Below are positions 9,520 through 19,823 of a DNA stretch of 32,884 nt, one piece after another. The DNA lies in NCBI GenBank assembly GCA_021604765.1, contig BQJP01000008.1, positions 64,918-97,801 of the forward strand. The letters are read 5' to 3'. Position 1 is the first letter of the stretch; each line of letters begins with the position of its first letter. Source of the DNA: Thermodesulfobacteriota bacterium. Its GTDB lineage: Bacteria; Desulfobacterota_D; UBA1144; Nemesobacterales; UBA2774. The translations under genes and the position numbers were made by a program. Under the pieces are notes generated by a model. It worked only from the letters and a program-made list of their open reading frames with translations, searched no databases and was not told the DNA's origin.

Positions 9520-11007
9520 ATGTATCAAATCACAGTAAACATATTTAAGATAACTTATAGATCTTTATCTCTACTTTTTATCCTTCACTTTCTGATAGTA
9601 GGTTTTGGGACAGAAAAAGCTTTTTCGCAGGAGACAACCAGTTTTTCGCAAACTGTTAAAGACCACACAACCCTTGGAGTTAACATAAGGCTCAGGGATG
9701 AATACTGGAACACTTTTGAGAAAAGAGGAACGGACACGGACGCTTCGTATAACTTTTTCCTCATAAGGGCGAGAGCCTTTGCAGACTTCACCTGGGAGAA
9801 GTTCAGACTTCATATTTTAGTACAAGGGGTAAAAGCCTTTGATTTCCCCAGGAACGGAGCTTTCGGACCGGGACCACTTTATTATAATGCCAGTGATCAA
9901 AAAACAGCTCCGGGTAATTTTCAATTCGTAGAAGCTTTTCTGCAGTACAATGATCCAATCGGATTTTACTTTAAAGGGGGAAGAATACCGATAAAAGATG
10001 GAGCGGAAGTTCTTTATAAAAACAAACCGAAACTTAATTGGATAATAAATAAAAGACTTTCCGAAAGACTAATTGGCACATGGGACTGGACAAACATAGG
10101 AAGGAGGTTTGATGGAGTTAGTACGGGTTACCACAACCCCACGTTTGATTTCAATGTGTTTGGATCCTGGGTAACATTCGGAGGCTTTGATTTTGACGAC
10201 GGTTACTGGAAAGACCTCGATAACGTAGTCGTTGTAGGTGGATCAGTTACCCTAAAAGAGGGCGTTCTTCTAAAAAACACTCAGCTAAAGCTATTTAATT
10301 ATTTCTACTTTGACGACAGAGACGTAGCTCAGAGTTTTGCAGGAGACAGCTTGGAAATCAATAATATAGGTGTTAGTGCAGTAGGCGCTTATCCGGCAGG
10401 CCCAGGAGAGATAGACTTGATGCTGTGGCTTTCGTTTCAGTTCGGAAACTTTGGCGACAGAAACCAAAAAGCAGCCGCATTCATCACAGAGGCAGGATAC
10501 CAGTTTACCGCAATGCCGTGGAAACCATGGTTTAGGGCAGGAATAGCATATGCTTCGGGAGACGGTGATCCAGATGATTCTGATAACGGCACCTTCTTCA
10601 ATATGGTTCCTACAAATCACAAGTTTTACGGTTCTGCGGATACAACTGCTTTTAGTAACATAGTAGATACTTACTTTCAGTTTTTATTATCCCCACACAA
10701 GAGGGTCAATTTTGCAGTTGATGGACATCTGTTTTGGTTGGCCTCAGATGACGAAGTCTGGATTGGCGGATCAGGACCTTTTAACGACGCGCTTTTCGGC
10801 TATGCATTTAGAAATCCAGTAGAAGGAAATGATATAGAGAAAGACTTGGGTGGGGAGATCGATTTAAGTGTTAATATAGTAGCTCTGGAGTTTCTGTCTT
10901 TCCAAATCGGTTATTCTCACTTCTTTGGAGGCGACGGTGTGGGTGTGGTTTTTGATAAAAAAGACGATCTCGATTGGTTCTATGCTCAATCTGTAATCAA
11001 TTTCTAG
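9520..11007 (+). CDS. alginate-export-type outer-membrane porin
   Basis: The 495-residue protein has a signal peptide (hydrophobic residues about 18-33, then EKAFSQETT). A long beta-barrel follows, of the kind grouped as alginate_exp (AlgE-like): GVNIRLRDEYWNTF, FFLIRARAFADFTWEKFRLHI, EAFLQYNDPIGFYFKGGRIPI, WDWTNIGRRFDGV, and a C-terminal strand ending in FYAQSVINF with the usual terminal Phe. Many members transport sugars or other small anions rather than alginate (family knowledge), and no alginate biosynthesis genes are in this window. Start ATG follows AGAGGAG by 7 nt. It lacks the six-copy promoter of the upstream island and stands alone between two gene-poor stretches. Confidence 0.78.
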   Translation: MYQITVNIFKITYRSLSLLFILHFLIVGFGTEKAFSQETTSFSQTVKDHTTLGVNIRLRDEYWNTFEKRGTDTDASYNFFLIRARAFADFTWEKFRLHILVQGVKAFDFPRNGAFGPGPLYYNASDQKTAPGNFQFVEAFLQYNDPIGFYFKGGRIPIKDGAEVLYKNKPKLNWIINKRLSERLIGTWDWTNIGRRFDGVSTGYHNPTFDFNVFGSWVTFGGFDFDDGYWKDLDNVVVVGGSVTLKEGVLLKNTQLKLFNYFYFDDRDVAQSFAGDSLEINNIGVSAVGAYPAGPGEIDLMLWLSFQFGNFGDRNQKAAAFITEAGYQFTAMPWKPWFRAGIAYASGDGDPDDSDNGTFFNMVPTNHKFYGSADTTAFSNIVDTYFQFLLSPHKRVNFAVDGHLFWLASDDEVWIGGSGPFNDALFGYAFRNPVEGNDIEKDLGGEIDLSVNIVALEFLSFQIGYSHFFGGDGVGVVFDKKDDLDWFYAQSVINF

Positions 11008-13130: not shown

Positions 13131-13388
13131 ATGAATAAACAACCCAAAATAGCTAACGGTATAGATATTAATGAGGTAGAGGACGGTTATGTCATCTACC
13201 AGAAAGAGACAGACAAAGTTCACTACCTAAACAAAACGGCCGTGTTGGTACTAGAATCCTGCACAGGAGGGAACACGATCGCCAACATAGGAACAATCGT
13301 CAAAAATGCATACGAACTTCCAGAAGTGCCCGAAAAGGAAGTTGCAGACTGTCTCGACACACTTTTTCAGGAAGGTCTGATTAAATAA
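13131..13388 (+). CDS. PqqD-like peptide-binding chaperone (HPr-rel-A type)
   Basis: This 85-residue protein has the length and pattern of PqqD-family RiPP recognition domains: an N-terminal strand pair (GIDINEVEDGYVIYQKETDKVHYLN), then TAVLVLESCTGGNTIANI and a helical C-terminal half ending VADCLDTLFQEGLIK. PqqD-like domains bind the leader of a peptide substrate and present it to a modifying enzyme (family knowledge). Here it is followed by an HprK-like kinase and, further on, a nucleotidyltransferase-family protein, as in loci catalogued as HPr-rel-A. It is not pyrroloquinoline-quinone biosynthesis: no pqqA, pqqC or pqqE is present. CGGAG lies 10 nt before the ATG. The kinase frame is open from the stop codon of this gene. 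Confidence 0.85.
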   Translation: MNKQPKIANGIDINEVEDGYVIYQKETDKVHYLNKTAVLVLESCTGGNTIANIGTIVKNAYELPEVPEKEVADCLDTLFQEGLIK

Positions 13389-13450
13389 TTTACGAATGCA
13401 AGTATACTCTGCTAGACACCGCATTCACGATATATACTGAAAGTGAAGAA

Positions 13451-14221
13451 GTGGCGCGTCGTCTTGCCTTTATCGTACACAAAGCCGAACATAACATCTC
13501 CCCTATCAAAAGAGTTTCATTCGAATTGAATGCTAGAAATAATGTATACGAGATACTAAAAGACGGAATGATATGTTTCACTTCTGAGGATCTACCAAAT
13601 TCCATATTCCATCTCCAGTGGCATATGCATCATGAAGCGTTGAAAGATGTTACTGAATCAATACGAATTCATTCTGGGTGTGGGGAACTACACGGGAAAA
13701 GATTTCTCATCGTTGGTGACAAGGGAGCAGGGAAGACTACGTTAATGGTGCGTTTACTGTTCGAAGGGTTTCGGGCAATCACTGATGAGCTGGTTCTGCT
13801 CAGGGACACAAAGGTACTACCGTTTCCAAGACGTTTTCACATTAAACAGGATAGCGTTAGATTGCTTCCTGAGTTAAAGGAATTGTTTGGCTCACTGCCT
13901 TTCAACCAAGCCAATAACGATCAGGGAATGTATTCATTCACCCCACAGGATGCTGGATTTGACTGGAAGATAGATGAAGGCAAATTACGAGCTGTTTTTT
14001 ACCTGGAGCCCAACCACGGAGGAGAAACACGCGTGGTGGAGTGTCCAAAGTATCTGATGGCCCAGAAGATTATGCCTATGACTTTTCTCTCTGAATCTGA
14101 GGATCATATGAAAATTGGAGAGGTTTGTAGGATAATTGATACTGTGGACTGCTATGTTGTCCATATAGGAGATCTTGATGGTGCGGTCTCCAAGTTGAAA
14201 GAAACAATGTCAGCTATCTAA
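13451..14221 (+). CDS. HprK-related P-loop kinase
   Basis: From the first standard start (GTG 13451), residues 89-96 are a Walker A loop, GDKGAGKT, and ITDE at 110-113 occupies the position of the second acidic motif of HPr-kinase-like ATPases. The N-terminal region before the P-loop is the divergent extension seen in HprK-related proteins. It is not a true HPr kinase: no PTS genes are near and the C-terminal HPrK signature is not evident. In related peptide clusters such kinases phosphorylate the precursor (for example the Ser kinase of paeninodin-type lasso loci). The frame is open back to the pqqD stop and encodes convincing protein (YECKYTLLDTAFTIYTESEE). The true start may therefore be a non-standard ATT at 13388 overlapping that stop, after AGGAAGG. 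Confidence 0.82.
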   Translation: MARRLAFIVHKAEHNISPIKRVSFELNARNNVYEILKDGMICFTSEDLPNSIFHLQWHMHHEALKDVTESIRIHSGCGELHGKRFLIVGDKGAGKTTLMVRLLFEGFRAITDELVLLRDTKVLPFPRRFHIKQDSVRLLPELKELFGSLPFNQANNDQGMYSFTPQDAGFDWKIDEGKLRAVFYLEPNHGGETRVVECPKYLMAQKIMPMTFLSESEDHMKIGEVCRIIDTVDCYVVHIGDLDGAVSKLKETMSAI

Positions 14222-14331
14222 TGTGCAATAATCGTTTGCATTACAACATGAAGTAGAAAAAATCCCATGTTTGTAGAGCATTTATGTTTTATGTAAGTTT
14301 TTTGCTATTATTACAACTTTGTAGGTGAAAA

Positions 14332-15438
14332 TTGAGCGATATAATATTTTCTGCTTCTATGATAGTCCGTAACGAGGAAAAATTCCTCGCGGGTTGTCTT
14401 CAGTCCATAAAAGATGTTGTCGACGAAGTAGTAATAGTCGACACAGGCTCTGATGATAGGACAAAAGAAATAGCACTGGAATATGGTGCTAAGGTTTTTG
14501 ATTTCCCATGGAACGGCGACTTTGCATCTGCACGAAACGAGGCGCTGAATAACTGCCGGGGCGAATGGATCCTCTATATAGACGCAGATGAGAAACTCAG
14601 ACCTATCGATAAATCATATGTTAGTGAGATTCTCTCAGACAACGGGAAGGTTGCATACACAGTAATGTTTCATCCCATTTTAGGTTATACAGCTTACAGG
14701 GAGTATCGTATTTTCCGCAATGATCCCCGAATTCGCTTTGAAGGAGTAATTCACGAATCTATTTTTAGAGCGATCCATGAAGTAGCACGAGAGGACAGAC
14801 TTGAAATTGAGGAATGTGATCTTACGATTGATCACCTGGGTTACGAAGGAGACCTTTTACATAAACATAAAAGAAACGTTTCTCTGCTAAGAGATCAGAT
14901 AGAGAATGACCCTGGTAGGGTATACCTAAGATGGCAACTCGGAGTCGCACTTAAGGGACTGGGAGACCCTGCTGGAGCTGAGCAAGCCTGGAGGGACGCA
15001 ATCTATTTAGTGCGCAAAAAGAAAACGCTTAGTCCTGATTACAGCTTGCCTTACTACGACATAATCAAGCTACTAAATGAGAGTGAAAGAAACTACTCTG
15101 AGCTGCTAGAAGAATCTTTGAAACTATTCCCTGAGAACTACCTTATAAAATGGACTTATGCCATGACGCTTATGCATGATCATCAATTTGAGGACGCACT
15201 TCCGCTTTTTGAATATCTCTCTTCGATCGACCCCCGCAGTGTTGATGGGGAGTTTCTTGCCTACAATGCCCGTATTTTCGATGAGCTTTCCTACGAGCCT
15301 CTCGCTACTTGTTATTTTAAGCTCGGCAGATTACAAGAGAGCGAGAAATATTATGCGCTTGCGTTACAGCACAACCCCAAAAACCAGGAATACATGGCAA
15401 AGCACAAACTTGTATCAGCTTTATTAAATAAACTGTGA
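14332..15438 (+). CDS. GT2 glycosyltransferase with C-terminal TPR-like region
   Basis: The 368-residue protein begins with a family-2 fold: SASMIVRNEEKFLAGCLQSI, then DEVVIVDTGSDDRTKEIA, and the metal-binding DAD at residues 84-86 (LYIDADEKL). The second half is helical with TPR-like periodicity (QLGVALKGLGDPAGAEQAWRD, YEPLATCYFKLGRLQESEKYY-type). This combination is common in bacterial polysaccharide or peptide/protein glycosylation loci. The start is a TTG preceded by AGGTG, and no in-frame ATG gives the conserved SASMIVRNEE start. A 110-nt gap separates it from the kinase. The next GT starts 3 nt after this stop, so they are translationally linked. Donor and acceptor are unknown. Confidence 0.85.
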   Translation: MSDIIFSASMIVRNEEKFLAGCLQSIKDVVDEVVIVDTGSDDRTKEIALEYGAKVFDFPWNGDFASARNEALNNCRGEWILYIDADEKLRPIDKSYVSEILSDNGKVAYTVMFHPILGYTAYREYRIFRNDPRIRFEGVIHESIFRAIHEVAREDRLEIEECDLTIDHLGYEGDLLHKHKRNVSLLRDQIENDPGRVYLRWQLGVALKGLGDPAGAEQAWRDAIYLVRKKKTLSPDYSLPYYDIIKLLNESERNYSELLEESLKLFPENYLIKWTYAMTLMHDHQFEDALPLFEYLSSIDPRSVDGEFLAYNARIFDELSYEPLATCYFKLGRLQESEKYYALALQHNPKNQEYMAKHKLVSALLNKL

Positions 15439-15441
15439 TCT

Positions 15442-16173
15442 ATGAAAGTTGAACCACTTATATCATGTTTATGTGTTACACGAGACAGAACACATTTGCT
15501 CCATAGGGCAATTAGATCCTTTAGGGATCAAACATACACTCATAAGGAACTTGTGATTGTTTACGAAAACGACGACTCTTCAAGTAACGAATTCCTAAGA
15601 GGGGTTACTGATAACAATATATATAAAATAGAGGCTCCAGCTTCACCGCGTCATACGCTTGGGGAGCTCAGGAATCTGGCGGTAAGCAAGTCCAAGGGAG
15701 AATATTTCTGCCAATGGGACGACGATGATTTCTCTCACAATGAAAGGCTTTCATTTCAGATGAGAGTTCTGCAAGAGTCCGGCCTGCCTGCCTGTGTGAT
15801 GGTACACTGGCTCGTGTTTGATGAGTTTAGTGGTAAAGCTTACGTATCGAACATGAGGCCCTGGGAGGGGAGTATCATGTGCCGTAAATCTCTGGTTGGA
15901 GATGACATTAAATATGAAAACCAAAGCAAAGGAGAGGATACGCCCTTAATAAACAAGTTGTTCTCTAAAAACCTCATATTCCCCATAGTCATGCCTAAAT
16001 TGTATGTATATGTCTACCACGGTAATAATGTATGGACCGAAGAGCACTGGGACAAGATATTTAAGGCAAGCAAAAAGCTTTCAGATGATTCTAGCAGGGT
16101 GATAAAGGAAATTCTGGATGGAAAATATACAGGAGACGAGGCTTCCAGCTTACTCGATCAGCTTGTAGAGTAG
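15442..16173 (+). CDS. GT2 glycosyltransferase, short
   Basis: The 243-residue GT-A fold enzyme starts PLISCLCVTRDRTHLLHRAI, has VYENDDSSSN as the nucleotide-binding segment, and a metal/donor site WDDDD at residues 92-96. SPRHTLGELRNLAV fits the region between the two. There is no membrane segment, so it acts in the cytoplasm. It begins 3 nt after the preceding GT gene and is followed after 20 nt by a third GT, forming a three-gene unit. Substrate is unknown; context suggests modification of a peptide or a short surface glycan. Confidence 0.82.
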   Translation: MKVEPLISCLCVTRDRTHLLHRAIRSFRDQTYTHKELVIVYENDDSSSNEFLRGVTDNNIYKIEAPASPRHTLGELRNLAVSKSKGEYFCQWDDDDFSHNERLSFQMRVLQESGLPACVMVHWLVFDEFSGKAYVSNMRPWEGSIMCRKSLVGDDIKYENQSKGEDTPLINKLFSKNLIFPIVMPKLYVYVYHGNNVWTEEHWDKIFKASKKLSDDSSRVIKEILDGKYTGDEASSLLDQLVE

Positions 16174-16193
16174 GATTATAGTATTTAAGAACT

Positions 16194-17942
16194 ATGGCAA
16201 TACCCAAAATATTACATCAGACCTATAAGACTCATGAAATACCTGCTCAGCTTGAAGAATATCGCCGTAAACTTATAGAGCTTCATCCCAACTGGGAGTA
16301 CAGATTTTACGGAGATGAAGAGTGCCGAGATATTGTGGAACAGCATTTCCCTTCTTTTCTCCCTGTTTATGATAGTTATTCCGCTCCAGCACAGAAAGCC
16401 GACATCTTCCGTATAATAGTGGTCTATGCACTAGGCGGTTTTTATCTCGACATCGACATCGAATGTATAAAGAGTCTTGATCCGCTTTGTGAATTCCGGT
16501 GCGTATTTGCCGAAGAGCTGACAATTACACAAGAGCAGGCGACAGAATTAGGTCACAGGGATCTTCTAAGAGTTGCAAACTATATGTTCGGCAGCGAACC
16601 CGGACACCCTTTCCTGCTTCATATACTAAAGAGAATAGCACAGGAGTCCGAGCGTGATATCACCTCAGAGAATGATGTGCTGGAATCTACAGGTCCTGGC
16701 CTCGTTACTACAGTGTATCATGACTCACTTGAGGACTTCACAGACTTAGTACTCCTTAGAAATATCGACTTCATATGTCCGATTACAGCTGTGGTTGGGT
16801 GCCGCTTCGGAAATTACGCAGAGCATCATCATGTGGGAACTTGGAGATGGGAAAACTCTTTAACTCAACCATTGGTCGACCCTGTTCAGAGAAAGATGGT
16901 CACAGAATCACAGAGAAACAAAATTTACAGTGAGATTGATTCTGAAATCAAGAAGATACCATTAGAGGAGACAATATATCAACTCAAGACATATAACGAC
17001 AAGCCTGACGACGGATTAAGTTATGTTTATGATCTCACGTCCAGAATTGGAGTTTCATTGAAAGACACAAAACATTTAAAAGGTCAAAAGGTTTTAATAA
17101 GCGGTATGCCTCATTTGTACACTGATAAAATATCACCGAGCAACCTGAATGTTGTTTCTACAACTTTTGAGAGTGACGGGCTTCTCCCTTTCTGGGTTGA
17201 AACGATCAACAAACACTACCAATATTGCGTTGTGCCACACCCGCATGTTAAAAAGATGTTCAAACATTCAGGCGTCAATGTTCCCATAGAAGTAATAAAT
17301 TTGGGCTTCACTAGGTACAACAGACTCTACAAACAAGCGCTCCCGGAAGGCTTGTTCCGAGTCGGCTTCCTAGGTGTGCCAACAGCAAGAAAAAACCTGT
17401 TTAAGCTTTTTCAGGCTTGTGTAAATCTCTCTTCGGAGATACCAGGATTGAGACTGGTTGTGCATGTAGCGAGGCCGTTCAGTGATATGTTAAAGCCTGA
17501 GCTCACACTCGTGAAATTGTCCCCTTTTGTGGAGTGGACGGAAGGCCCAATTTCTGAGGACGAAGTTGCACAATGGTACAGCAAACTTTCATGCTATGTA
17601 TTTCCGTCAAGCACTGAGGGCTGGTCTTTTACTCCCAGAGAGAGTCTTTATATGGGGATTCCAACTGTATTGACAGACATTCCCGTTCATAAAGAACTTG
17701 TTGAATCTGGCTATTGCAAGGTAATACCCTTAAACGGCAAAGAAAAAGCCTCTTTCGATGGAATTATCTCGGGTACGTGGGATAGGGTTAGTGTAGAGGA
17801 TATAGAAAATGCGATACGCGATCTTTACCAGAATTACGGGAATTATTACAGTAAGGCGCTTCAGGGAAGCCAATGGATTGAAAATAAATGGACAAACGAA
17901 AGCTCCCAGCAAAATCTGCTTAACTTTCTCTTGAAGATATAG
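16194..17942 (+). CDS. fused GT32-like plus GT4-like glycosyltransferase
   Basis: The 582-residue product joins two catalytic folds. Residues 1-250 resemble GT32/Gly_transf_sug enzymes: IPKILHQTYKTHEIP, HPNWEYRFYGDEECR, KADIFRIIVVYALGGFYLDIDIE with the DxD at 86-88. Residues about 290-582 resemble a GT-B family-4 enzyme: VVPHPHVKKMFKHSG, RVGFLGVPTARKNLFKLF, and FPSSTEGWSFTPRESLYMGIPTVLTDIPVHKELV, where the E-G-W-x-x-x-x-R-E segment corresponds to the usual E-x7-E donor-binding motif. Both active sites look intact, so one protein could add two sugars in succession. Neither part has a membrane helix. It is the last gene of the three-GT unit; the stop is followed by a short AGGA/TCCT inverted pair without a U-tract. 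Confidence 0.85.
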   Translation: MAIPKILHQTYKTHEIPAQLEEYRRKLIELHPNWEYRFYGDEECRDIVEQHFPSFLPVYDSYSAPAQKADIFRIIVVYALGGFYLDIDIECIKSLDPLCEFRCVFAEELTITQEQATELGHRDLLRVANYMFGSEPGHPFLLHILKRIAQESERDITSENDVLESTGPGLVTTVYHDSLEDFTDLVLLRNIDFICPITAVVGCRFGNYAEHHHVGTWRWENSLTQPLVDPVQRKMVTESQRNKIYSEIDSEIKKIPLEETIYQLKTYNDKPDDGLSYVYDLTSRIGVSLKDTKHLKGQKVLISGMPHLYTDKISPSNLNVVSTTFESDGLLPFWVETINKHYQYCVVPHPHVKKMFKHSGVNVPIEVINLGFTRYNRLYKQALPEGLFRVGFLGVPTARKNLFKLFQACVNLSSEIPGLRLVVHVARPFSDMLKPELTLVKLSPFVEWTEGPISEDEVAQWYSKLSCYVFPSSTEGWSFTPRESLYMGIPTVLTDIPVHKELVESGYCKVIPLNGKEKASFDGIISGTWDRVSVEDIENAIRDLYQNYGNYYSKALQGSQWIENKWTNESSQQNLLNFLLKI

Positions 17943-18045
17943 GAGTTACATCCTAGAACAATTATTGACAAATATCTTGTTTTTATTGAAGCTATGTGTT
18001 AATTTAGATTCGTCAATATATACTTACACATAAGCGGAGGGAAAC

Positions 18046-18219
18046 ATGAGCGATAAGAAAATTCCAGAGAACGTTAACTCAGATAGACGTGAGTTCTTGG
18101 AGAAGGTTACCAAGGGCGCGTTTGTTATTCCTACTGTAATATCAGTGATGATGCTCAATCAGAAGCTTAATATTACAACAGCCAACGCACAGAGCGGTAA
18201 TATGACAATTATAAATTAA
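18046..18219 (+). CDS. 57-residue peptide with Tat-like leader, candidate modified-peptide precursor
   Basis: The small ORF follows AGCGGAGG by 5 nt. The product is MSDKKIPENVNSDRREFLEK, then a hydrophobic VTKGAFVIPTVISVMML, then NQKLNITTANAQSGNMTIIN. SDRREFLEK matches the twin-arginine consensus (S/T-R-R-x-F-L-K), and ANAQ gives an AxA signal-peptidase site. Cleavage after ANA would release about nine residues, QSGNMTIIN, with an N-terminal Gln able to form pyroglutamate. The gene is flanked by three glycosyltransferases and a nucleotidyltransferase-like gene, with a PqqD-like chaperone and HprK-like kinase upstream. I infer it is the substrate of that set. Alternatives are a membrane-anchored small subunit or simply a short Tat-type protein. 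A gap of about 100 nt upstream suggests its own promoter. Confidence 0.72.
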   Translation: MSDKKIPENVNSDRREFLEKVTKGAFVIPTVISVMMLNQKLNITTANAQSGNMTIIN

Positions 18220-18530
18220 AATTATTTGAGACGACTTAAATAATTGTTGTTACGGGTCATATTTAGTGTCTTGTTATATGAAAATGAAATTCATATGAAT
18301 AGGCCTGGTTTATATATGCATTCCCGAAGACAAGTTAGCCAATTGTCCAATTAAAATCTTAGTCCGACCTTCTGCCTCTTTTGTTGGACCAAAGTTCATC
18401 TGCCTATCATAACTTCACATTTCTGATGCCCTCATAATGATTAAGAGGGGCTTGTATATTTAAAATTTTCAAGAGTATATTTTCTTGTGAGCAAGAATAC
18501 TTATAACCATTGAACATTTAAGATATTCTG
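18220..18530 (+). other. 311-nt gene-poor stretch
   Basis: An AT-rich hairpin (AATTATTT/AAATAATT, 18220-18245) follows the peptide stop directly. A GCCCTC/GAGGGGC hairpin (18428-18451) with a weak T-rich tail could be the terminator of the peptide transcript. A TATGAA/TTCATA inverted pair sits at 18277-18295. No coding frame is convincing. Confidence 0.5.
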
Positions 18531-19823
18531 GTGATAGTAGACCATAAAAGCGGGACACGGAAATTGGAAGAGGAAAAAAAAACAAAACTCACATTCGAAG
18601 ATTCCAAAAGCGAGTATAAGCCAGAGTACGAACAAGAATTACTGCTCAGCGCATGCCTACTGAAAGGCGAAGCCGCCATTGATGCTTATAATCAATGGAA
18701 AACCTCCGTAGATTTAGATAATGTCGATCCAGGTTCATACCGTCTCTTTCCTCTACTTTATTTCAACTTAAATTCGCAGGGTATAGAAGACCCGATGATG
18801 AATATTTTTAAGTGGGTTTACACGAAAACCGCTGAGAACAACCAAATACTAGTCAAGAATCTCGCTCAGCTTCTTAAAGAGTTTAACAAGTCCTCTTTAG
18901 AAACCATTTTGCTTAAAGGCACTGCGTTGATAACAACTTGTTATAAGGATTATGGACTGCGACCAATGATGGATGCTGACCTGCTTGTCCCTACCGAGAA
19001 AGCAGGTGAGGCAATTCAACTTTTATCCAGACTCGGATGGAACTCCTCCATAACACCACTCAAAGGCTTTCAGGAGATGGCTCTCTTGTCACGGCTTGGA
19101 TGGACTCCCGGGAATAGGAAGCTCGAAGACTTTACGGACGAGTATTTTTGTGTGAGGCACGGTCAGGACTTTACGAACCCCGAGAAATTCACTGTAGACC
19201 TCCACTGGCATGTGCTGCAAGGATATAACGCCTCTGATGCCGATGTGGATTTTTGGCAGGGCGCTCGAAGTATAAGCGTTGAAGGTGTTAATACACTTGT
19301 GTTAGATCCCGCCGATTTGCTACTTCACGTATGTTCCCACGGTGCTAAATGGGACACTATTTCCCCAATACGCTGGGTTGCAGATGCAACCTGGATAATA
19401 GACAGTACAAATGGAGAAATTGATTGGAATAGATTTATAGAGGTATCTAATCGTCACGGTAATGTGCTGCATGCAAAGGAGGCTCTACGCTACCTGAATC
19501 GGTATTTGGAGTGTAAAGTGCCCAAATCCGTATTCGAGGTTCTAGATGCAGCTCATATAACGAAAGCTCAATATTTGGGCTACCATATAAGAATGCGTCC
19601 ACCCGGGATACTCGATGGTTTTTATGAACTCAGCTTTCTCTACAGCAATTATTCAAGAACAAACCAAGATAAAAATTTTTTTCGCAGAATTGCTGGATAT
19701 CCTCGGTTCCTTCAGAATGTATTGGGAATGGAAAAGCTGCGACACCTGGTACTGTATAGCGTATTCGAGTTTGTACGCAGAGGCCTTGAGCTTCCGGGTT
19801 CAATAATTAGACGTTTGAGGTAA
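18531..19823 (+). CDS. nucleotidyltransferase family protein (NTP_transf_5 type)
   Basis: The 430-residue protein has the signature of the family called uncharacterised nucleotidyltransferase: LLKGTALITTCYKDYGLRPMMDADLLVP with the KG at 129-130 and the acidic pair D148/D150, then VDLHWHVL and DLLLHVCSHGAKW. Family members recur beside PqqD-like and HprK-like genes in lasso-peptide (paeninodin type) and exopolysaccharide loci, where they are thought to elaborate phosphorylated peptide or glycan. This supports a functional link with the genes from 13131 onward. LLSRLGW appears twice (164-170 and 185-191), indicating a small internal duplication in the region after the acidic motif. The start is a GTG without a clear ribosome-binding site; TTG at 18562 is an alternative. 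Confidence 0.8.
   Translation: MIVDHKSGTRKLEEEKKTKLTFEDSKSEYKPEYEQELLLSACLLKGEAAIDAYNQWKTSVDLDNVDPGSYRLFPLLYFNLNSQGIEDPMMNIFKWVYTKTAENNQILVKNLAQLLKEFNKSSLETILLKGTALITTCYKDYGLRPMMDADLLVPTEKAGEAIQLLSRLGWNSSITPLKGFQEMALLSRLGWTPGNRKLEDFTDEYFCVRHGQDFTNPEKFTVDLHWHVLQGYNASDADVDFWQGARSISVEGVNTLVLDPADLLLHVCSHGAKWDTISPIRWVADATWIIDSTNGEIDWNRFIEVSNRHGNVLHAKEALRYLNRYLECKVPKSVFEVLDAAHITKAQYLGYHIRMRPPGILDGFYELSFLYSNYSRTNQDKNFFRRIAGYPRFLQNVLGMEKLRHLVLYSVFEFVRRGLELPGSIIRRLR

Follow-up and report, generated by a model that had tools for sequence, protein, structure and literature searches.

The window analysed here, a 32,884-nucleotide stretch of contig BQJP01000008.1 from the 3.4-Mb draft genome of a member of Candidatus Dadabacteria, a little-known group of soil and sediment, carries at positions 13131-19823 a cluster of seven open reading frames (ORFs), all on the + strand. 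They encode, in order, a PqqD-like protein, an HprK-like kinase, a GT2 glycosyltransferase with TPR repeats (GT2-TPR), a second GT2 glycosyltransferase, a two-domain GT32-GT4 glycosyltransferase, a peptide of 57 residues and an NTP_transf_5 nucleotidyltransferase-fold protein. The original prediction, made from the DNA letters alone, had read this set as a candidate peptide-modification system, and its gene content holds up: all seven ORFs were found, and Pfam matches support the identities given to the PqqD-like protein (1.6e-8), the NTP_transf_5 protein (3e-37) and the three glycosyltransferases.

The 57-residue peptide (18046..18219, +; GGAGG ribosome site) consists of a leader and a short tail. 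The leader, about 50 residues long, is present in 25 copies in six species of one family, 24 of them outside the window in five other genomes, so that the single small peptide of the original prediction is a real ORF but one member of a multi-copy family. The consensus of the leader, MSxKKFLDxVNPERREFLEKVTKGAFIIPTVISVMMLNQKLNLTTANAQSN, includes 20 residues that are invariant in the alignments (R14, R15, F17, T22, G24, A25, F26, P29, V31, S33, M35, M36, L37, Q39, L41, T45, A46, N47, A48 and S50). Specifically, these contribute to an RR-x-F motif resembling that of twin-arginine translocation (Tat) signals (R14 R15 E16 F17; 18085..18096, +), which is invariant in Dadabacteria and in 11 alphaproteobacterial copies; to F26-x-x-P29-x-V31 (18121..18138, +), invariant in the Dadabacteria copies and similar to the [Y/W]xxPx[V/L] motif bound by the recognition element (RRE) of ribosomally synthesized and post-translationally modified peptides (RiPPs; PMC13381572); and to a signal-peptidase-like AxA (A46-N47-A48; 18181..18189, +), also invariant in the Dadabacteria copies. 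Ser50 (18193..18195, +), the predicted site of phosphorylation or glycosylation, is invariant in the 25 Dadabacteria and 11 alphaproteobacterial copies. Leaders end in ANAxS and are followed by the variable part of the family, a tail of 5-18 amino acids in stop-terminated copies: the predicted mature tail is QSGNMTIIN in the window (18190..18216, +), and elsewhere QSNDT, QSNMTVP, QSNDGGVGGG, QSQDLTSPP, NSNDG, VSNDGMVPPPPE, QSNQTVPTGIPGPTGAPG and others are found. One genome holds nine leader copies, eight of them in a single cluster and the other at a separate place. Between the window leader and the others, synonymous sites differ by 0.59-0.94 and nonsynonymous sites by 0.04-0.11, and such saturated synonymous change with few nonsynonymous changes indicates that the protein sequence of the leader is under strong purifying selection. 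This substitution pattern and the 25 conserved copies rule out a chance ORF or an annotation artefact. No Pfam or NCBIfam model scored above its cut-off for the Dadabacteria or the alphaproteobacterial peptide family, and a leader search of viral contigs returned no match.

Across 58 genomes of the phylum, the kinase occurs in five and the leader, with strong scores, in six. All five kinase-bearing genomes have the leader, and only one of the remaining 53 has a strong match; in that sixth genome (G042) the contig starts inside a Hint domain that shortly precedes the GT2-TPR gene, the kinase region being off the contig. A seventh genome (G032) holds an orthologue of the NTP_transf_5 gene at a contig end. 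Simple counting that assumes independent genomes puts a chance overlap of kinase and leader at about 1e-6, a figure overstated for genomes of one family. In the relatives the cluster opens with PqqD and the kinase, continues with (leader-Hint), GT2-TPR, GT2 and GT32-GT4, then with successive peptide genes, and closes with NTP_transf_5; the genes flanking it vary from species to species. The Dadabacteria cluster is thus a self-contained cassette with differing flanks, an arrangement that speaks against its being an exosortase or polysaccharide locus. Constant pairing of the PqqD and kinase genes with such a locus, or loss of the small ORF from homologous loci, had been named in the original prediction as grounds for abandoning it; the pairing was not seen, and the ORF is present in all five kinase genomes and in the sixth.

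The makeup of the cassette also bears on a reading in which the peptide serves as a membrane-held primer or as an accessory of a surface polysaccharide, its phosphoserine bearing a glycan chain that the three glycosyltransferases assemble and no peptide being released. Besides the three glycosyltransferase genes, this reading draws on the hydrophobic stretch of the leader, which could remain in the membrane, on the polysaccharide export genes that adjoin some alphaproteobacterial copies and on the location in capsule loci of the clusters for linear polyphosphorylated peptides (LPP), a peptide system of Bacillota (PMC13381572). We nevertheless regard it as unlikely: neither the Dadabacteria cluster nor the sequence directly flanking it has an exosortase, polysaccharide polymerase, flippase or export gene, the leader ends in an invariant AxA motif of the cleavage type, and variable tails would be unexpected for a mere primer.

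Similarity to the NTP_transf_5 protein led to plasmids of Crinalium, Rhizobium, Paenibacillus and Novosphingobium. At the Novosphingobium locus a small ORF (...NDRRSFLAACGKYSLLVPPAMTMLLSTSLSSPAIAKSGGG...) directly precedes a PqqD-HprK fusion and an NTP_transf_5 gene, and its peptide led in turn to rhizobial homologues; the sampling comprises one Dadabacteria family and plasmid-borne alphaproteobacterial loci, the chromosomal survey being of Dadabacteria only. Eleven alphaproteobacterial peptides share invariant RR, F, G, PP, T, LL and S-x-A-x-A-x-S. Both the Dadabacteria leaders and 11/11 alphaproteobacterial peptides conform to the pattern RRxF-x11-P-x3-[ST]-x-[LMIV]2-x3..14-AxAxS, which has no other match in 0.9 million six-frame residues; having been derived from both peptide sets, it is a check of specificity rather than an independent test. 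In a ranking of 1,922 frames by the Dadabacteria leader profile, the alphaproteobacterial peptides come out at or close to the top, and across 44 columns a profile-profile comparison of the two groups yields 92% and an E-value of 7e-7. The kinase and NTP_transf_5 genes are close by at 6 of the 11 peptide loci. In the reverse check, eight of ten loci fetched by kinase similarity have the peptide beside the kinase and NTP_transf_5 genes (three with a relaxed motif); the other two lack the peptide, and their kinase match is either split in two or only 98 residues long. Leader, kinase and NTP_transf_5 thus co-occur in two phyla. The alphaproteobacterial counterparts appear to be undescribed in the literature searched. 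A tblastn search of the plasmids with the Dadabacteria kinase gave no match, and the Dadabacteria leader gave weak chance matches only.

Such co-occurrence is hard to reconcile with the view that the small ORFs are ordinary Tat-exported proteins found near PqqD, HprK and NTP_transf_5 genes by coincidence. That view would account for the Tat-like features and for rhizobial orphan copies without a nearby kinase, but it is very unlikely, as, in both phyla, none of the intact kinase loci of this type that were examined lacks the leader, the leader profile does not match the generic Tat proteins of the same genome, and mature tails of 5-18 residues would be odd for proteins. Some plasmids depart from the common arrangement. 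Two from Ensifer adhaerens (L100 and L109) show a broken kinase and no adjoining peptide, an apparent joint decay, and five rhizobial plasmid loci (L081, L082, L084, L088 and L090) carry orphan Gly-rich RR...AxAxS peptides with no kinase nearby, that of L090 beside an exopolysaccharide locus. On the Crinalium plasmid (L066:5896-6360), a PqqD with a C-terminal extension ending in ...LLLLDPIHEVDVEAGWPNAKTA adjoins the NTP_transf_5 and kinase genes, and the precursor may here be fused to PqqD.

With RRxF[L], a hydrophobic region and AxA, the leader fits the Tat consensus, the residue before RR being D or E, and TatC was found in eight of the nine genomes tested. RRxFL together with AxA suggests Tat export with trimming by a signal peptidase, a route that, we infer, would tolerate a decorated peptide. 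Alternatively, the product could be a cytoplasmic phosphopeptide or glycopeptide RiPP, RRxFL and the hydrophobic stretch being a helix or strand that PqqD and the enzymes recognize rather than a Tat signal, and export proceeding through an unlinked transporter or not at all. Residue conservation beyond the needs of Tat, the likeness of F-x-x-P-x-V to an RRE-binding motif and the failure of curated Tat models to match the window peptide would all fit this alternative; set against it are the joint occurrence of RRxF, hydrophobic region and AxA in two phyla, the presence of TatC and the lack of a linked exporter, and we consider it rather unlikely.

Some precursors of the relatives have a further domain. 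In five leader copies from three genomes the tail is followed directly by a domain that starts with Cys and is about 150 residues long, and a partial domain of this kind is found in G042; most relatives have a Hint-fused copy, and the window has none. The fused domain resembles Hint_2 (4.7e-5 to 7.5e-4, below the Pfam cut-off) and, when used as a profile, matches the intein CatC at 4e-9. Cys1, a block-B-type HP (with its His) and a block F/G of the form YDLLPxGxTGxYxAxG are conserved, as in Hint and bacterial intein-like domains, whereas the C-terminal His-Asn of splicing inteins is absent; the expected activity is accordingly cleavage or transfer of the N-terminal part, not splicing. The domain sits exactly at the end of the tail, as seen when ESNMTVP|Cys is set beside QSNMTVP-stop of another species and VSNDG|Cys beside NSNDG-stop. 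Among the 58 genomes, the leader-Hint profile detected such Hint domains only with this leader. Searches for Hint domains with RiPP precursors, for HPr-rel-A and for Dadabacteria RiPPs returned no literature on this system. One Hint-fused copy (L053:932-1543) includes a stretch left undetermined by N in the assembly, and a lone leader-Hint gene far from the cluster (L056:9105-9839, contig 3 of G031) adjoins a gene for a protein with an IPTL-CTERM sorting signal.

The PqqD-like protein (13131..13388, +; 85 aa), whose Pfam match is above the cut-off, is predicted to be the leader-binding RRE, and it is better conserved than the kinase (71-79% versus 48-61% identity to relatives). The HprK-like kinase (13388..14221, +, start approximate) finds its best model in TIGR04352 HprK_rel_A (1e-15, below cut-off) and matches Hpr_kinase_C of Pfam weakly (0.0024). 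Walker A GDKGxGK[TS], D132 and N208-H209 are invariant in five species, and an AlphaFold model (pLDDT 64), which served for the fold family only, matches phosphoenolpyruvate carboxykinases (PEPCK) and, more weakly, HPr kinase, in line with the PEPCK/HprK superfamily and with the identity first given to this gene. The GTG start listed for it has to be revised: homology among relatives reaches up to the PqqD stop codon, which places the start further upstream. No ATG, GTG or TTG lies at the conserved N-terminus (window 13385-13451), and the relatives share AAATAATT or AAATAA after a GGAAGG-type site, pointing to ATT/ATA as the start codon or to translation coupled with that of PqqD; the start is probably the conserved ATA/ATT codon behind the GGAAGG site, overlapping the PqqD stop. 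Searched against the PDB, the kinase profile and the NTP_transf_5 and GT32-GT4 proteins gave nothing informative.

Downstream of the kinase, the GT2-TPR protein (14332..15438, +) has as its nearest solved structures the protein and peptide glycosyltransferases GmaR (9e-30) and SunS (5e-15). The GT2 protein (15442..16173, +) has orthologues of 56-71% identity at the same position in relatives, the GT32-type (DXD) and GT4-type two-domain protein (16194..17942, +) likewise has orthologues at the same position, and orthologues of the NTP_transf_5 protein (18531..19823, +) end the cluster. GT2-TPR is duplicated within the peptide arrays of relatives, where the second gene often sits among peptide genes. 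At L007:16260-18615, L051:6571-7804 and L057:10076-11468 this second gene is flanked by peptides of which several begin with a KxSKxFxDD rather than a DKKFLD N-terminus, a hint that each GT2-TPR may be matched to a subset of peptides of its own. Elsewhere (L130:2836-10275, in G014) an NTP_transf_5 gene related to that of the window lies among roughly seven GT2-type genes arranged in tandem. The catalytic domain of GT2-TPR is shared with glycocin synthesis (SunS) and flagellin glycosylation (GmaR), but a glycocin system was rejected: the SunS model gives 66.6 of the 350 bits required, and there is neither a Cys-rich core nor a peptidase-ABC exporter.

Published pathways lend the combination of kinase and nucleotidyltransferase a biochemical meaning, in agreement with the original reasoning. 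The HprK-like kinase PadeK phosphorylates the C-terminal Ser of the precursor of the lasso peptide paeninodin, and the NTP_transf_5-type PsmN is required for hexoses on the phosphoserine of pseudomycoidin (PMC9266682). A PqqD-like B1 protein, an HprK-like kinase and NTP_transf_5 are common to these lasso systems and the present cluster. A lasso reading was nevertheless discarded: the B2 peptidase and the C macrolactam synthetase are absent from the window cluster and the loci of relatives, and there is no lasso-type core. Radical SAM and exosortase readings fell in the same way, their defining genes being absent; that lasso B2/C proteins, radical SAM enzymes and a dedicated ABC exporter are missing had been recognized at the outset. 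HPr-rel-A loci (TIGR04352/TIGR04353) are a looser parallel, in which the kinase has its best model and PqqD a weak match, but scores fall far below curated cut-offs and no NCBIfam precursor peptide model was matched.

The closest likeness is to LPP of Bacillota, whose core set comprises an RRE, an HprK-like kinase, an NTP transferase, an SpI peptidase and an exporter, whose precursors have a conserved N-terminus with YxxPxV and variable C-termini, and whose kinase LppK phosphorylates Ser3 of a core starting AQSNWK (Popov et al. 2026, PMC13381572). Both systems have a discrete RRE, a kinase of this type and an NTP transferase, several precursors with a conserved leader, variable C-termini and a signal-peptidase-type cleavage motif, and no cyclase, and F-x-x-P-x-V and A-Q-S-N occupy corresponding positions in the Dadabacteria leader. 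Set against the LPP leader motif YxxPxVLxHQxIxFETxxS, the Dadabacteria copies have F-x-x-P-x-V, Q-x-L and, further on, a T and an S without exception, but they lack Tyr and His and the spacing differs. By contrast with LPP, the Dadabacteria system has a Tat-like RRxFL, glycosyltransferases dedicated to the core cluster, Hint-fused precursors and tails of 5-18 residues instead of a 45-residue core; neither an SpI-type leader peptidase nor an MsbA-like exporter was found in the gene content of the Dadabacteria loci or among the gene families of the window; and the system is spread over Dadabacteria and alphaproteobacteria, not Bacillota. We therefore treat LPP as a resemblance and do not assign the system to it, given the missing peptidase and exporter genes and the differing leader.

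Taken together, these features make a linear RiPP-like pathway, in our judgement, the probable function of the cluster. The PqqD-like protein would bind the hydrophobic part of the leader and present the precursor to the HprK-like kinase, which would phosphorylate the invariant Ser50 just past AxA; the NTP_transf_5 protein and the three glycosyltransferases would then add sugars at or beyond the phosphoserine. The decorated precursor would be exported by Tat through RRxFL and cut by signal peptidase after ANA, yielding a very short phospho- and glyco-modified peptide, and in the relatives a C-terminal Hint domain would cleave itself at Cys1, releasing or conjugating the same kind of tail.

Several observations weigh against this pathway. 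A dedicated peptidase or exporter is missing from the cluster. RR is preceded by D or E instead of S/T, and leader conservation is stricter than Tat export alone requires; the curated models PF10518 and TIGR01409 do not match the window peptide, and TatC was not found in G030. Equivalog cut-offs are reached neither by the kinase (57.6 versus 200 bits for TIGR04352) nor by PqqD (21.3 versus 35 bits for TIGR04353), and the leader-Hint AlphaFold model (pLDDT 42) was not used, so that the fold there rests on sequence. Dedicated glycosyltransferases were not seen in the alphaproteobacterial core, and glycosylation may thus be a local addition. More broadly, the case, including any biological role of the product, is inferred from sequence and published parallels.

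More tentatively, the pathway could represent an undescribed RiPP class of Dadabacteria and alphaproteobacteria, in which a Tat signal doubles as the RRE-bound leader, phosphorylation and glycosylation take place in the cytoplasm, Tat is used because the peptide is already decorated and, in Dadabacteria, a self-cleaving Hint domain fixes the C-terminus of some precursors by hydrolysis or conjugation. New to peptide systems built on an RRE, HprK and an NTP transferase are the Tat-like leader, the dedicated glycosyltransferases, the Hint-fused precursors and the distribution across phyla; neither a leader that is both RRE ligand and Tat signal nor RiPP-like precursors with a terminal self-cleaving Hint domain were found in the literature searched. 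If correct, this would connect the maturation of RiPPs with Tat export and with C-terminal processing of the hedgehog type. Sets of PqqD, HprK and NTP_transf_5 genes are scattered through many bacteria, and their known substrates are confined to a few pathways of Bacillota; given a recognizable precursor in which a modified serine is predicted, their function can be put to a direct test, and Sinorhizobium is among the tractable organisms in which this could be done.

Two observations concern the surroundings of the cluster and other Dadabacteria. Upstream of the cluster, the window encodes an alginate-export-type outer-membrane protein (9520-11007), with an opposite-strand gene in between. Loci of other Dadabacteria (L127:4515-9391 and L129:4289-9400) combine a small PqqD-like protein, an HprK-like kinase, a protein resembling lasso B2, an NTP_transf_5 protein and an ABC transporter; no precursor was seen at these loci, which may represent another peptide system.

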